32,615 bases of DNA from Cyanobium sp. CACIAM 14 (lineage in GTDB: Bacteria > Cyanobacteriota > Cyanobacteriia > PCC-6307 > Cyanobiaceae): positions 1 through 32,615 of the forward strand of contig JMRP01000032.1 in NCBI GenBank assembly GCA_000708525.1. The letters are read 5' to 3'. The position numbers and the translations under genes were made by a program. Shown piece by piece: positions 18,960 to 24,022 of the stretch. The notes beneath the pieces were generated by a model. The model did not search any database and had not been told where the DNA came from. It saw only the letters and a list, made by a program, of their open reading frames with translations. Position 1 is the stretch's first letter. Every line of letters starts with the position of its first letter.

Positions 18960-19073
18960 TCCCCTGAGCCGGCGGTCCGGGGCGGTGCGGGCCTTTCGAT
19001 GCGCGCCTTGCCACATCCCACCCGGAGACGCAAGAACTGCGCGTACGGTTCGAGGGATGTGCCTGCCGCCGCG

Positions 19074-20306
19074 ATGGAACAACTGACTCCCGAGGGCCTC
19101 AGGGTCGTCAACGAACTGGCCCAGCGCTACGGCTTCAGCCAGGAGGCCGTGATCCACATGATGTTCGCCATGCTCCGCGGACGGGGCGGCATGGCCCAGT
19201 TCAACCATCCGGAGTTCGCCGGTTCCGGGCAGTGGATGCGCAGCGGCATGCTGATGCTGGGGGACATGTTCAACCATGCCCTCAAGGCGAGGGTCGACGG
19301 GCTGTGCCAGGCGATCGCCGCTCAGCTCGCCAGCCAGCCGGAGCTGTTCCCGGTCGGCAGCTTCCAGGCCCAGAGCCAGAGCGGCGGCGGTCAGCAGATG
19401 CAGGTGGGTGGTTCGGGTCAGCAGATGCAGGTGGGGGGTGGCGGCCAGCAGATGCAGACAGGCCCGGGCGGGATGGCGCCCATGCCGCCGATGGGGGTCG
19501 GGGGCGGCAGCCTGTTCAGCCCGGATCCACGCGACACCTGGTGGCCGAAGGAGCTGGGCAGCCCCAGTGCCATCGGTGCCCAGAACGATGTGCGTTACGC
19601 CTTCTTCCCGTCAGCAGGCCGGCTCGCCGTGGAGGCGAACGGACGGGTGACCGTGTACGACACCGGCGAGCACCACATCGCCGGCTTCTCCCACCAGCAG
19701 GGACCCGGCGGTGCCGTGGTGTTCAGCACTCCCGGGGGCACTGTGAGCCTGGCGAGTCTGTCTCCCCTCGCCGGCGGCACGTTTCAGCAGGCCCAGAGCT
19801 CCGCTGGGGGAAGCCAGCAGCAGCAGGTGAGCACCGGCATGGCGCCGATGGCGGGCATGGGTTCGATGGCGCCGATGAACTTCTCCCCGATGGGCTCGTT
19901 GGAACCCTGGTGGCCGAAGGACCTGGGCAGCCCCAGTGCCACCGGTGCCCAGAACGAGCTGCGCTACGCCTTCTTCCCGGCGGCCCGCCGTCTGGCGGTG
20001 GAGGTGAACGGGACGCTGAGCCTGCACGACACCGGCGATCTGCAGATCTCCGGCTGCTCCCAGGACAGTGGCGCCGAGGGGGTGCGGTTCAGCACCGGCA
20101 CCGGCAGCGTCGCCCTCGCCAGCCTGCCGGAGGTGAGGCCCACGGCATCGGCGCCCGAGCCGCCACCGGCGGCGGAACCCACCCACCAAGGCGGGAAGGC
20201 TGACGTGCTCGACGCCCTGGCCCGGCTCGGCGAACTCAGGGACAGGGGCATCCTCACGGAGGCGGAATTCGCCGGCAAGAAAGCCGAGCTGCTCGGCAGG
20301 CTGTGA
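19074..20306 (+). CDS. SHOCT-domain protein with duplicated core
   Basis: This is a 410-residue protein. Residues 1-92 are a conserved helical module (MEQLTPEGLRVVNELAQRYG, NHPEFAGSGQWMRSGM). A Gln/Gly/Met-rich linker contains three 9-residue repeats (QQMQVGG). Then come two copies of a beta-rich unit, residues 155-230 and 278-352, each starting WWPK(E/D)LGSPSA and including YAFFP and RLAVE. The C-terminal SHOCT helix pair is at 377-410 (LGELRDRGILTEAEFAGKKAEL). Related proteins normally seem to have one core unit; the second looks recently duplicated because the DNA is still very similar. SHOCT domains are thought to mediate oligomerisation or binding; function is unknown. ATG 19074 fits the family start; ORF sequence upstream to 18999 is not conserved. 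Confidence 0.82.
   Translation: MEQLTPEGLRVVNELAQRYGFSQEAVIHMMFAMLRGRGGMAQFNHPEFAGSGQWMRSGMLMLGDMFNHALKARVDGLCQAIAAQLASQPELFPVGSFQAQSQSGGGQQMQVGGSGQQMQVGGGGQQMQTGPGGMAPMPPMGVGGGSLFSPDPRDTWWPKELGSPSAIGAQNDVRYAFFPSAGRLAVEANGRVTVYDTGEHHIAGFSHQQGPGGAVVFSTPGGTVSLASLSPLAGGTFQQAQSSAGGSQQQQVSTGMAPMAGMGSMAPMNFSPMGSLEPWWPKDLGSPSATGAQNELRYAFFPAARRLAVEVNGTLSLHDTGDLQISGCSQDSGAEGVRFSTGTGSVALASLPEVRPTASAPEPPPAAEPTHQGGKADVLDALARLGELRDRGILTEAEFAGKKAELLGRL
19392..19472 (+). repeat. Three 27-base tandem repeats inside the SHOCT gene
   Basis: CAGCAGATGCAG recurs exactly at 19392, 19419 and 19446, a period of 27 bases. It encodes three Gln-Gln-Met-Gln-Val/Thr-Gly units in the linker. Confidence 0.85.
19536..20129 (+). 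repeat. Long imperfect direct repeat (duplicated core unit)
   Basis: Unit A (19536-19763) and unit B (19905-20129) are offset by 369 bases, a whole number of codons. Their first 75 bases differ at only a few positions, for example TGGTGGCCGAAGG and CTGGGCAGCCCCAGTGCC in both. Similarity falls off toward the end of the unit. The segment between them is a Gln/Met-rich linker. Confidence 0.85.
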
Positions 20307-20349
20307 CGCTCTGCCAGGTCTGCACCGATGGGCGCTTCGCCGAGGTGCC

Positions 20350-20545
20350 GAACTAAGGGGGCGCGGCGTGGTGGTGAAGGCCCTGAGCGCCACAGAGCCG
20401 GAGGCGCCAAGGGCCAACACCTACCGCCGCTTCGAGTAGACGGCCCTGCGCAGCCGTGCGCTGGAGCGCTGCGCCGCTGCCGGGGTGCGCTGGCACCGGG
20501 GCCGGGCCGGTCACCCCCACTACGCGATGGATTGGGGTCCGCAGG
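20350..20545 (+). pseudogene. Decayed partial copy of crtL
   Basis: Block 1 (20350-20424) matches crtL 22799-22873 at 65 of 75 bases by hand count and still reads VKALSATEPEAP. Block 2 (20422-20508) matches 23003-23089 at 74 of 87 bases. Between them 132 bases of crtL are missing. The break falls where crtL has TACGGC at both 22871 and 23003, so deletion between short repeats is likely. A TAG at 20437 stops the frame. A third short match, TACGCGATGGAT at 20521, corresponds to crtL 23354 and implies a further 252-base in-frame loss. The remnant begins 43 bases after the SHOCT gene and ends before the GT-C gene. Confidence 0.88.
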
Positions 20546-20761
20546 GCGCAGGTTCAAGATGAACCGTACGCCCGCAGCAATGCTGACGAGCATTTTCGTG
20601 CTTCATTCTTGGAAGCCGCTGGAGATTGTTTGCACCGTACGGGCCGCATTCGAAATTGCCGGTAGACTGAGACTTAAATTCTGCCGATCATTTTCCTCCA
20701 CATCAATGAACTGGAGAAACATTGGTTGGCGGTTTACCCTTGTCGGCGTTGGTGAGAGCGT
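20546..20761. other. AT-richer leader before the GT-C gene
   Basis: Base composition drops in GC from about 20545 and stays lower through the following gene. The region likely holds the promoter of that gene, but no convincing -35/-10 pair was found. GGTGAGAG just before the ATG at 20762 may be its ribosome-binding site. Confidence 0.45.
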
Positions 20762-22432
20762 ATGAATGCCTTGAAGTTCTCCGGTGATGGAACCCGCAAG
20801 GGCATCGGTGTTCCGCTCGAGTTGATTGCTTTGCTTCTCGTGTGGATCTTTGGTGTCCTCATGAATCTGACAAAGGCCTTTCATATTGATGACACGGTTC
20901 ATTTGGAGACTGCAAAGTGGATATTGCAGCATCCATGGCATCCCATGAGCGGCAGGATCAACTGGGACCAGAATGCGGAACCAATCCATACGCTGAACCA
21001 GCCCCATCTGTACTTCTATCTCCTGGCGGCATGGGGCCGGGTCTGGGGTTTTGGGGAAGTGCAAATGCACATGCTTCAGGCGTTCTTCGCGCTCGCTTGC
21101 ATTCTCCTGATCTATCTTATCGCGAAGATATACGTTTCCTCCAGGGCTCTGATTGTCACATCATTGATCGCCTTGAGTCCTGCTTTTGTGGTGGGACAAA
21201 ATCTGATGGTCGATATTCCCCTTCTTTCATTCTGGCTGGCTTTCTATTACTTTCTCCTGGGGCCCCAAGGCATGCCGGAAAGTCGGCGATGCATCCTTTC
21301 TGGGTTTTTCTGTGGATGCGCGTGCCTTGTTAAATATTCCAGTCTGCCTTTGATTGCTGTGATGTTTGCGTACTTTGTTATCAGGCGGAACTATCGCATG
21401 CTTTGGACGGTTTTTATTCCCATTGCGTTGTTGGGCTTATGGTCTCTGTTTAACTATTTCGATTACGGCTCAGTGCACATTCTGGGTCGTTCCTCGGGGC
21501 AATGGGGTTTGAAGTGGTTGCTGGTTCAGGTTTTCTCGTTTGTGGTCTGCATGGGCTCTATCCTGCCCTATGCTTTTCTTTATTATCGATGGATTGGGCG
21601 TAAGCATACGGCTCTTAACAAGATTGTTCGAGCATTCCTGCTGGGAGGAATTCTTCTGTTTGCCGTTGTAGTGGCTGGCGCATTTGTAAATCTCTTTGGC
21701 GAATCTCTTGCAACGAGGCTCCTTTTGTTGCTCTTTTTTCTCAATGGAGCCTGCATTGGATTGTTATTGCTCTGGGTCCTTTTGAGGTCGTTCAGGTATC
21801 TGCCACGGAGTGGTCATGAAGTTACGCTGCTGCTTTCTTTGTGGGTTGCCTTTGGGGCTGTATTCACTGTTGTCTTTACTCCATTCATGGCGACTCGTCA
21901 TGTTCTTCTATTTATTGTTCCAATCACCCTCTTGCTGACCCGTTATGTCGAGAAGCGGTCTGCTTTTTCCTGGAACGTCATGGCCCTTCTGGTCGCGGCT
22001 TCTCTCAGTACTGTGTTGGGTTTGTCGGATCGGGACTGGGCCAACTTCTACAGGGAAAAGGCAGCCTTGATTCGTGCCGATCTGCCAGCTGATGCAAACG
22101 TCTATTTCACGGGACATTGGGGATGGCAGTGGTACGCCGCTCAGCAAGGAATGAAGCCACTTGAAGCCCTGAATCCACAGCTTCGAGTTGGCGATTACTT
22201 GGTGCATCCCACTGGAATTCCTCAGCAGACCTTGGAGCATGTCCCGCCTGGCTTGCGTTTGGTCGTTGTGAAAAGGTATGAGGATGCTCCGTCTGTTCTT
22301 TCTTTCTTCTCGACAAGATATAAGCACGGGAGTTTTTATGCTTCCGGCTTCACGACTCCTCCCTGGACGGTGACTTGGAGGCCAATCCCGCCTGTCGTGG
22401 TCTACAAGGTCATGCCGTCGGGCATTCCCTAG
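20762..22432 (+). CDS. GT-C glycosyltransferase, ArnT/PMT-like membrane protein
   Basis: This 556-residue polytopic protein has about ten or more hydrophobic spans. The first lumen-side loop carries the acidic pair in AFHIDDTVHLETA, the place of the catalytic DD/DE motif in GT39/GT83-type enzymes. LMVDIPLLSFWLAFYYFLLG is the second hallmark. A soluble C-terminal part (about residues 430-556) includes VYFTGHWGWQWYAAQQG. Such enzymes move a sugar from a polyprenyl-phosphate donor to a lipid or protein on the outer face of the membrane. The acceptor cannot be told. The gene is visibly lower in GC than its surroundings, uses many A/T-ending codons, and sits between a decayed and an intact crtL, all consistent with horizontal gain. 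Confidence 0.75.
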   Translation: MNALKFSGDGTRKGIGVPLELIALLLVWIFGVLMNLTKAFHIDDTVHLETAKWILQHPWHPMSGRINWDQNAEPIHTLNQPHLYFYLLAAWGRVWGFGEVQMHMLQAFFALACILLIYLIAKIYVSSRALIVTSLIALSPAFVVGQNLMVDIPLLSFWLAFYYFLLGPQGMPESRRCILSGFFCGCACLVKYSSLPLIAVMFAYFVIRRNYRMLWTVFIPIALLGLWSLFNYFDYGSVHILGRSSGQWGLKWLLVQVFSFVVCMGSILPYAFLYYRWIGRKHTALNKIVRAFLLGGILLFAVVVAGAFVNLFGESLATRLLLLLFFLNGACIGLLLLWVLLRSFRYLPRSGHEVTLLLSLWVAFGAVFTVVFTPFMATRHVLLFIVPITLLLTRYVEKRSAFSWNVMALLVAASLSTVLGLSDRDWANFYREKAALIRADLPADANVYFTGHWGWQWYAAQQGMKPLEALNPQLRVGDYLVHPTGIPQQTLEHVPPGLRLVVVKRYEDAPSVLSFFSTRYKHGSFYASGFTTPPWTVTWRPIPPVVVYKVMPSGIP

Positions 22433-22468
22433 AAAGTTTCTATCTGTGATCTCAGGAGTGGTGGCGAT

Positions 22469-22490
22469 CGTGCTTCGCCCGTGCTTCGCC
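22469..22490. repeat. Tandem repeat CGTGCTTCGCC x2
   Basis: Two exact adjacent 11-base copies at 22469-22479 and 22480-22490, just past the GT-C gene. No role is assigned. Confidence 0.55.
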
Positions 22491-22586
22491 TTCCGCTTGC
22501 AGTGCTCTCTGGCAGGGCTTGTCAAGTTTCTGCACCCAGGTGGTGAGTGGAAAAAGGACCGTGGGACGGAGGACCTGGTCCCAGGC

Positions 22587-22619
22587 GAGGCACCCTCCGC
22601 CTCCTTGAGAGGGTGCCTC
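22587..22619. other. Perfect 11-bp inverted repeat in the crtL upstream region
   Basis: GAGGCACCCTC (22587-22597) and GAGGGTGCCTC (22609-22619) pair perfectly around an 11-base loop. There is no T-run on either strand, so it is not a standard terminator. It lies in the 297-base gap between the GT-C gene and crtL, which otherwise shows no gene. It could be a transcript-end structure, a regulator site, or a mobile-element end. Confidence 0.65.
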
Positions 22620-22729
22620 CCATGGTCGAAGTGATCCCCCCTGATGGTCTGTTCCAGGTCTTCTGATCGGCTCTGGAGCCTCTCCTGCGGTCCTCCCGCG
22701 AGCGTCGATACATTGGCCTCTCTCGCGAG

Positions 22730-24022
22730 GTGTCCCCCCTGACTCATCCCCACGTGCTGGTGATCGGCTCCGGCCCGGCCGCCCTCACCATCGCCGCCGA
22801 GCTCGGGGAGCGCGGCGTGGCGGTGGAGGCCCTGAGCGCCACTGAGCCGGAGGCGCCCTGGCCCAACACCTACGGCATCTGGGGCGACGAGGTGGATGCT
22901 CTGGGGCTGGGGCATCTTCTGGCGCATCGCTGGACCGACACGGTGAGCTACTTCGGCGCCGGCTGCGAGCAGGGCTCCGAACCCACCCCCCATGGCCGCG
23001 ATTACGGCCTCTTCGACAAGCAGGCCCTGCAGAGCCACGGGCTGGAGCGCTGCGCCGCTGCCGGCCTGCGCTGGCACCGGGGCCGGGCCGATGGCATCGA
23101 GCACGGGGAGGATGGGTCCACGGTGCATACCGAGGCGGGGGAGCGGAGACATGCCCGGCTGGTGATCGACGCCACGGGGCACGAGCCGTGCTTCGTGACA
23201 CGACCGAGCGACGGTCCGGTGGCCGGGCAGGCGGCCTACGGGATCGTGGGCCGCTTCTCCGCCCCACCGGTGGAGCCCGGCCGGTTCGTGCTGATGGACT
23301 ACCGCTGCGACCATCTCCGCCCGGAGGAACTGGCCGAGCCGCCCACCTTCCTCTACGCGATGGATCTGGGGGACGGCCGCTTCTTCGTGGAGGAAACGTC
23401 CCTGGCACTGGCGCCGCCCGTTCCCTTCGCGGTGCTCCAGGACCGTCTCCAGCGCCGCCTGGCCCGCCGGGGGGCCGCCGTGACGACGATCGAGCATGAG
23501 GAGTTCTGTCTCTTCCCGATGAACCCGGCCCTGCCGGATCCCGCGCAGCGGGTGGTGGGCTTCGGCGGCGCCGCCTCGATGGTGCACCCGGCTTCCGGCT
23601 ACCTGGTGGGAGGGCTGCTGCGGCGGGCGCCCGCCCTGGCCGCGGCTATCAGCACTGCCCTGGGGGCCCCTGAGCTGGACGGGGCGGCCCTGGCCGCGGC
23701 GGCCTGGGAGGGGCTGTGGCCGGCGGATCTGCGCCGCAAGCATGCCCTCTACCGCTTCGGCCTGGAGAAACTGATGCGCTTTCGCGAGGACCAGCTGCGC
23801 CATTTCTTCCGCACCTTCTTCCGGATGCCCAACGCGCAGTGGTACGGCTTCCTGACCAACACCCTCACGGTGCCCGAGACCTTCCGGGCGATGCTGGGCC
23901 TCTTCGCCCGTGCCCCCAACGACGTGCGCTGGGGCCTGATGGCCCCCGAGGGGCGGGAGCTGGCCCTGCTCGCCAAGGTGCTGGATCCCGACGCTGCCGT
24001 CTTCAGGGCGTCGCCAGGCTGA
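22730..24022 (+). CDS. crtL: Lycopene cyclase, CrtL family
   Basis: CrtL closes the ionone rings of lycopene on the way to beta- (or epsilon-) carotene and zeaxanthin, and is a membrane-associated flavoprotein. The 430-residue protein has the dinucleotide-binding VIGSGPAALTIAAEL at residues 10-24 and the family blocks PWPNTYGIWGDEV, VIDATGHEP, FLYAMDL and FVEETSLAL. GFGGAASMVHPASGYLVGG and FFRMPNAQWYGFL follow. Whether it makes beta or epsilon rings cannot be decided by eye. The start is GTG 22730; the frame has no better start nearby. The 3' end overlaps mqo by 20 bases, tail to tail. Parts of this gene are duplicated and decayed at 20350-20545. Confidence 0.93.
   Translation: MSPLTHPHVLVIGSGPAALTIAAELGERGVAVEALSATEPEAPWPNTYGIWGDEVDALGLGHLLAHRWTDTVSYFGAGCEQGSEPTPHGRDYGLFDKQALQSHGLERCAAAGLRWHRGRADGIEHGEDGSTVHTEAGERRHARLVIDATGHEPCFVTRPSDGPVAGQAAYGIVGRFSAPPVEPGRFVLMDYRCDHLRPEELAEPPTFLYAMDLGDGRFFVEETSLALAPPVPFAVLQDRLQRRLARRGAAVTTIEHEEFCLFPMNPALPDPAQRVVGFGGAASMVHPASGYLVGGLLRRAPALAAAISTALGAPELDGAALAAAAWEGLWPADLRRKHALYRFGLEKLMRFREDQLRHFFRTFFRMPNAQWYGFLTNTLTVPETFRAMLGLFARAPNDVRWGLMAPEGRELALLAKVLDPDAAVFRASPG

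Follow-up and report, generated by a model that had tools for sequence, protein, structure and literature searches.

A decaying partial copy of crtL beside a glycosyltransferase gene most likely gained from outside the Cyanobacteria in Cyanobium sp. CACIAM 14

How did a damaged piece of the lycopene beta cyclase gene crtL come to lie upstream of the intact gene in Cyanobium sp. CACIAM 14, with a foreign-looking GT-C membrane glycosyltransferase gene between the two? The window analysed here spans contig 32 (32,615 bases) from end to end, one of the 71 contigs of a 3.21 Mb draft genome with a completeness of 96.56 and an estimated contamination of 0.07%. The intact crtL occupies 22730–24022 on the plus strand, has a GTG start, and is recognized by the NCBIfam equivalog NF045687 with 631 bits against a cut-off of 500. 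The original prediction, made from the sequence alone, held that an insertion or duplication had created two crtL copies, of which the left one was decaying through short-repeat deletions. Our analysis indicates that 20347–20537 is very probably a pseudogene, left over from a second copy of the genome's own crtL and now in decay. This judgement covers the anatomy of the remnant and its decay, while the mechanism by a single event is rated separately below.

In a gapped alignment, three blocks of the remnant, all on the plus strand, were collinear with crtL, with 132 and 252 bases missing between them. Block 1 (20347–20421) corresponds to crtL 22796–22870 with 65 of 75 bases identical, exactly the count that had been made by hand. 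Block 2 (20422–20511), which contains an in-frame TAG, corresponds to 23003–23092 with 76 of 90 bases identical, bearing out a match that had been counted as 74/87 over a slightly different stretch. Block 3 (20512–20537), a probable one, corresponds to 23345–23370 (19/26). An independent repeat search paired 20347–20427 with 22796–22876 (86%), 20422–20535 with 23003–23116 (78%), and 20517–20537 with 23350–23370 (86%). The two main blocks were also found by a DNA search of the own genome (E 5.9e-22 and 5.4e-21), and a search of the same genome with the crtL protein returned the intact gene together with two pieces, one of them carrying the in-frame TAG. The main match of the remnant scored 117.5, compared with 32 for the best of 100 base shuffles of 20304–20540. 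When 20300–20765 was compared with the own genome, crtL and two short weak matches elsewhere (E 1.0e-4 and 0.0024) were obtained, and among the best candidates (at most 15) from each of 42 genus genomes, none outside the own contig matched this stretch better than crtL does. Other short genus matches to the remnant outside crtL (E 8.2e-5 or weaker) were discarded, as they lie far below the match to the own crtL and are either very short or confined to the GC-rich central part of the query.

The remnant lacks the leader and the first 22 codons of crtL, and its likeness to the gene ends at codon 121 of 430, or at codon 213 when block 3 is included. The in-frame TAG, the lost start region, the 132-base deletion and the missing 3′ end are all disabling lesions. 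The 132-base loss lies, as had been predicted, on TACGGC hexamers that stand at both ends of the lost segment in crtL (22871 and 23003), which amounts to a 6-base microhomology; at the junction of blocks 1 and 2 in the remnant this hexamer now reads TACCGC. Microhomology of at least 6 bases was found at 0.47% of 199,764 random crtL junctions. Both losses, 132 and 252 bases, are multiples of three, which has a chance of 1/9 for two random losses and is thus weak evidence.

The comparison with related genomes supports the left copy as the one that decays and the right copy as the one that is kept. Remnant and crtL differ at 26 of 166 sites, and relative to the consensus of 20 relatives the remnant had changed at 14 of these and crtL at 5, with 7 undecided; some of the changes in the remnant fall at positions that are invariant in the relatives compared. 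The remnant is identical to the crtL of the window at 160 of 191 bases (84%), against 133/191 for the best of 28 relatives, the genome G018, which is the closest relative by crtL. In a tree that sampled 28 of the 41 other genus genomes, the remnant was sister to the window's crtL with an ultrafast bootstrap of 98, and G018 formed the next branch with a support of 88; the branch lengths were 0.203 for the remnant and 0.006 for intact crtL. The differences between remnant and crtL are spread evenly over the three codon positions (11/12/8), so that selection on the remnant is not apparent, as in an unconstrained pseudogene, whereas those between G018 and crtL number 10/7/24. Given that the remnant and crtL pair to the exclusion of G018 and differ at 8 third positions versus 24, the duplication is dated to after the split from G018. 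The predicted copy and its decay are upheld by these data; a single event behind both the duplication and the insertion is plausible.

The same tree bears on the opposite assignment, in which the remnant represents the former resident crtL, whereas the intact gene, or at least its 5′ part, came in with the GT-C gene as an allele from a related strain. The left position does follow the gene with a SHOCT domain, like crtL in G018, and integration with homology at a single end, the other end being joined illegitimately, would give the same order of genes. However, the intact gene has a branch of nearly zero length, and none of the 28 relatives breaks up the pair formed by the two copies, so a donor of such an allele must have been very close, and we consider this explanation unlikely.

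The gene between the two copies (20762–22432, plus strand) encodes 556 amino acids in an intact frame. Its product contains a PMT_2 domain (53.1 bits, cut-off 26.1), and NCBIfam gave it no name. A structure model based on 8 sequences, with a predicted local distance difference test score (pLDDT) of 77.5 and a predicted template modelling (TM) score (pTM) of 0.83, matched 21 chains of the PDB at E up to 0.001, with titles of ArnT, OST/PglB/AglB, PMT, ALG12 and Aft/Emb glycosyltransferases. The best structural match, ArnT (5f15), had an E of 9.8e-08, yet a TM score of 0.43–0.44 and a root-mean-square deviation of 16.7, and superposition was modest across the structural matches (TM about 0.3–0.47); a sequence match to the PDB was not obtained up to E 0.1. 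As modelled, the protein has the GT-C fold. The segments GHWGWQWY (451–458) and HIDD (H41 I42 D43 D44) are invariant in all 8 aligned sequences, and the conserved acidic pair D43 D44, which lies near the first membrane helix, is the putative catalytic site. Judging from its family, the product probably resides in the inner membrane and transfers a sugar from a lipid carrier to an acceptor on the outer side.

At E up to 1e-10, the GT-C gene was found in its own genome only; the overlapping sets searched comprised 42 genomes of the genus, 300 of the family and 386 of the phylum. A pattern-led scan of named genomes yielded 63 relatives, none with a cyanobacterial title; sorted by title, 49 of these loci belong to Bacteroidota and 14 to others (Eisenbacteria, Gemmatimonadetes, Proteobacteria, Chloroflexi etc.). 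The best segments in the scan were 41% identical, and a metagenome-assembled genome of Gemmatimonadetes reached 43% over the alignment; no close donor was found. The GC content at third codon positions is 0.568 in this gene, compared with 0.844–0.945 in six other genes of the window. Given its confinement to the own genome, its relatives in other phyla and this deviant composition, the gene was most likely gained from outside the Cyanobacteria, in agreement with its earlier description as foreign-looking and placed between the two copies.

A gene without relatives in the cyanobacterial genomes searched, located on a contig of only 32.6 kb in a draft of 71 contigs, might also be explained by a misjoined assembly, with the gene of a contaminant placed inside a cyanobacterial contig. 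But the contamination estimate given above is very low, and since cyanobacterial sequence flanks the GT-C gene on both sides within one contig, two misjoins would be needed. Nor can the remnant be an assembly duplicate of crtL, as it is only 84% identical to it. An artefact is therefore highly improbable.

As to how the gene and the remnant arose, we judge it slightly short of an even chance that one event gave both the insertion and the duplication. Foreign DNA with the GT-C gene would have joined the chromosome at crtL, using homology to crtL on one side; either a circle recombined through a single crossover, or one end was joined by homology and the other illegitimately. The incoming DNA would have carried the start of crtL beside the foreign gene, and the outcome, read from left to right, would be a truncated crtL, the newly arrived gene and a complete crtL. 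As the whole right copy keeps the function, the left copy would be free to decay. The left copy has lost at least one internal stretch by deletion between short repeats. The presence of crtL on both sides of the foreign DNA is the arrangement observed. Complementary parts of a ComEC (Competence) domain are present in the own genome (G000:C3:6-494 and G000:C28:36502-36786), which are probably one gene split by a contig break, so that uptake of DNA is possible.

Several observations weigh against this account, or against parts of the anatomy on which it builds. The remnant is only 191 bases long, and the tree rests on little sequence. The score of block 3 was reached by 2 of 300 shuffles, which makes the block probable but short of certain, and over 15 trial placements of its junction the 252-base loss has an exact microhomology of only 0–2 bases; the third match and the further in-frame loss that had been predicted from it are thus moderately supported. 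In the stretches 20304–20350 and 20538–20765, similarity to crtL is no higher than in shuffles, 22 and 23 of which, out of 60, attain the best score, and the original limits of the duplication are therefore lost. The match given by 22433–22715 in the same comparison was set aside as an artefact, since this stretch overlaps its target. No vehicle was found: the GT-C protein and the DNA of 20300–22900 were both absent from plasmids, the occurrence of the GT-C protein in viral contigs was unconfirmed (3 pattern matches, zero relatives), and the crtL protein was absent from phage records, in which the GT-C protein was not searched. We also found no donor genome with the GT-C gene already beside crtL.

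Signs of a mobile element were likewise sought around the GT-C gene. The stretch ahead of it (20538–20761) has a lower GC content of 0.52, and two Pfam matches of an open stretch at 20583–20765 (E 0.056 and 0.13) are below cut-offs and were taken as chance. The stretch between the GT-C gene and the crtL leader (22433–22707, GC 0.62) is limited on the right by a leader judged by eye against G018 and a second relative, G017; a second copy of 22420–22740 was not found in the own genome, and three short matches of 22430–22735 in the genus outside the own genome (E 0.005–0.009) were taken as chance. An insertion sequence remnant before crtL, proposed from a likeness to the N-terminus of an IS5-type transposase, was dropped as unsupported. 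Pfam gave no match up to E 10 for 22431–22631 and three peptides in two forward frames, reverse frames not being searched; tblastn of the pre-crtL stretch against plasmids gave none either, and PF13340 was not detected at the locus; a single weak match (E 0.026) lay in another part of the genome. The interval between the GT-C gene and crtL contains a 17-base inverted repeat (22581–22625, 88%, 11 bases between the arms), which may be a terminator or the remnant of another element.

Relatives were examined for the state of the locus and for further crtL copies. In G018, as had been anticipated for a relative, the SHOCT gene directly precedes crtL, the two matches lie 202 bases apart, and both the remnant and the GT-C gene are absent; the protein ahead of crtL in this genome is 80% identical to the SHOCT-gene product of the window. 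A crtL match was present in 41 of the 42 genus genomes (own included), the exception being G040, and more than one match occurred in four, namely the own genome, G020, G034 and G035. Those of G020 are different parts of the gene on two contigs, and those of G034 are adjacent parts on one contig. G035 has a nearly whole crtL and a C-terminal piece at a contig end (G035:C165:2-238), which is either a second copy or a redundant contig. Two whole crtL genes were seen in none of the 42 genomes, several of which have partial matches at contig ends; the intact second cyclase that would have spoken against the prediction was thus not encountered. A crtL match was likewise present in 147 of the 151 genomes sampled from the family, many of which have two, and among the matches listed, two long ones occur in eight genomes (G061, G066, G069, G071, G093, G110, G112 and G124), which we take to be crtL-b and crtL-e.

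We then examined stretches from 14 relatives. Both gyrA and crtL were seen in 13 of these stretches, the distance between their matches ranging from 56 bases to 6.3 kb. In 12 of the 14, the DNA upstream of crtL was compared with the own crtL of that genome, and a second crtL piece was not convincingly seen in any of them; the upstream DNA compared ran from SHOCT in G018 and G017, from gyrA in nine, and over everything upstream in G008, whose stretch is without gyrA. G008 gave two short and weak crtL matches of 40 and 47 bases, with E of 0.001 and 0.005; one of them is on the opposite strand, and both were taken as chance. Self-comparison of the 14 stretches at E up to 1e-6 gave repeats of at least 50 bases only in the SHOCT region of G018 and G017. 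Among the genomes examined, the crtL scar occurs in the window only.

The variable interval gives weight to a history in two steps, in which a tandem crtL duplication left a spare copy in decay and an unrelated illegitimate insertion later placed the GT-C gene between the copies. The gap between gyrA and crtL tolerates insertions, as the extra DNA differs among the 13 relatives, and the 12 relatives without a convincing upstream crtL piece indicate that insertion there is possible without duplication of crtL. On the other hand, the nested products would then be a coincidence, and a whole left copy must also have shed its 3′ half. We regard two events as possible and give them appreciable, though minor, weight; a single event at crtL remains the explanation that we put forward.

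Other contents of this interval were noted in two relatives, Pfam being applied to only five interval genes, four of G024 and one of G017. In G024 its contents include glutaminase, bestrophin-like, DAO-type oxidoreductase and UPF0114 genes. In G017 the place of the GT-C gene, between SHOCT and crtL, is taken by a gene of 784 residues with a GC of 0.55 and a weak match to Peptidase_M10_C (E 1.8e-4). It is conceivable, although we doubt it, that the gap is an insertion slot of the genus without a visible integrase, receiving different foreign genes in different species, and that the scar records one such acquisition, made through homology with the core gene next to it. If this were true and such scars were common, gene gain through one-sided homology could be counted in genomes.

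The neighbouring genes show some features of their own. The gene with a C-terminal SHOCT domain (18999–20306, plus strand, Pfam E 2.2e-08), the left neighbour of the remnant, contains an internal 157-base duplication (19537–19693 and 19906–20062, 83%), and the SHOCT region of G018 and G017 has a repeat of 156 bases (80–81%). On the other side, the ends of crtL (plus strand) and mqo (minus strand) overlap by 20 bases as listed (24003–24022).

Taken together, the locus is the scar of ordinary gene gain and duplication, for which no new system or mechanism is needed: a decayed duplicate adjoins a horizontally gained gene, both kinds of event are common, and the record is clean. It provides a small and readable case in which a gene, probably from another phylum, was gained next to a core pigment gene, no mobile element having been detected, and in which the by-product, a spare fragment of crtL, is in decay. 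In the open-access literature, we found nothing on crtL pseudogenes in Synechococcus or partial lycopene cyclase duplication in cyanobacteria, nor on horizontal gene transfer in Cyanobium with genomic islands and pseudogenes. Bacterial pseudogenes are characterized by in-frame stops, changes at conserved sites and short-repeat deletions. The crtL remnant has the same features, with a repeat of 6 bases, and we saw no difference from them.

Among the closest parallels for the proposed origin is homology-facilitated illegitimate recombination (HFIR), described for naturally competent species, in which the illegitimate junction mostly has 3 to 10 bases of microhomology and is generally accompanied by a deletion (PMC3240628). 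In HFIR, foreign DNA uses homology for one of its joins and an illegitimate join for the other, and here a foreign-looking gene stands between a partial and a whole copy of a homologous gene; the deletion in HFIR products is generally similar in size to the insert, whereas the original junctions in the window are eroded (PMC3240628). The orphan immunity gene arrays of Vibrio cholerae type VI clusters resemble the locus in that new modules are proposed to come in next to a conserved anchor by a process akin to HFIR, leaving the older gene behind; the leftover immunity genes are kept there, while the leftover crtL decays and the insert is one glycosyltransferase gene (PMC5361080). The formation of merodiploids by transformation is similar in that DNA uptake leads to two gene copies of which one is free to change, but there the duplicated segments lie between repeats and measure about 100 to 900 kb, whereas the one described here lies inside a single gene (PMC3784515).

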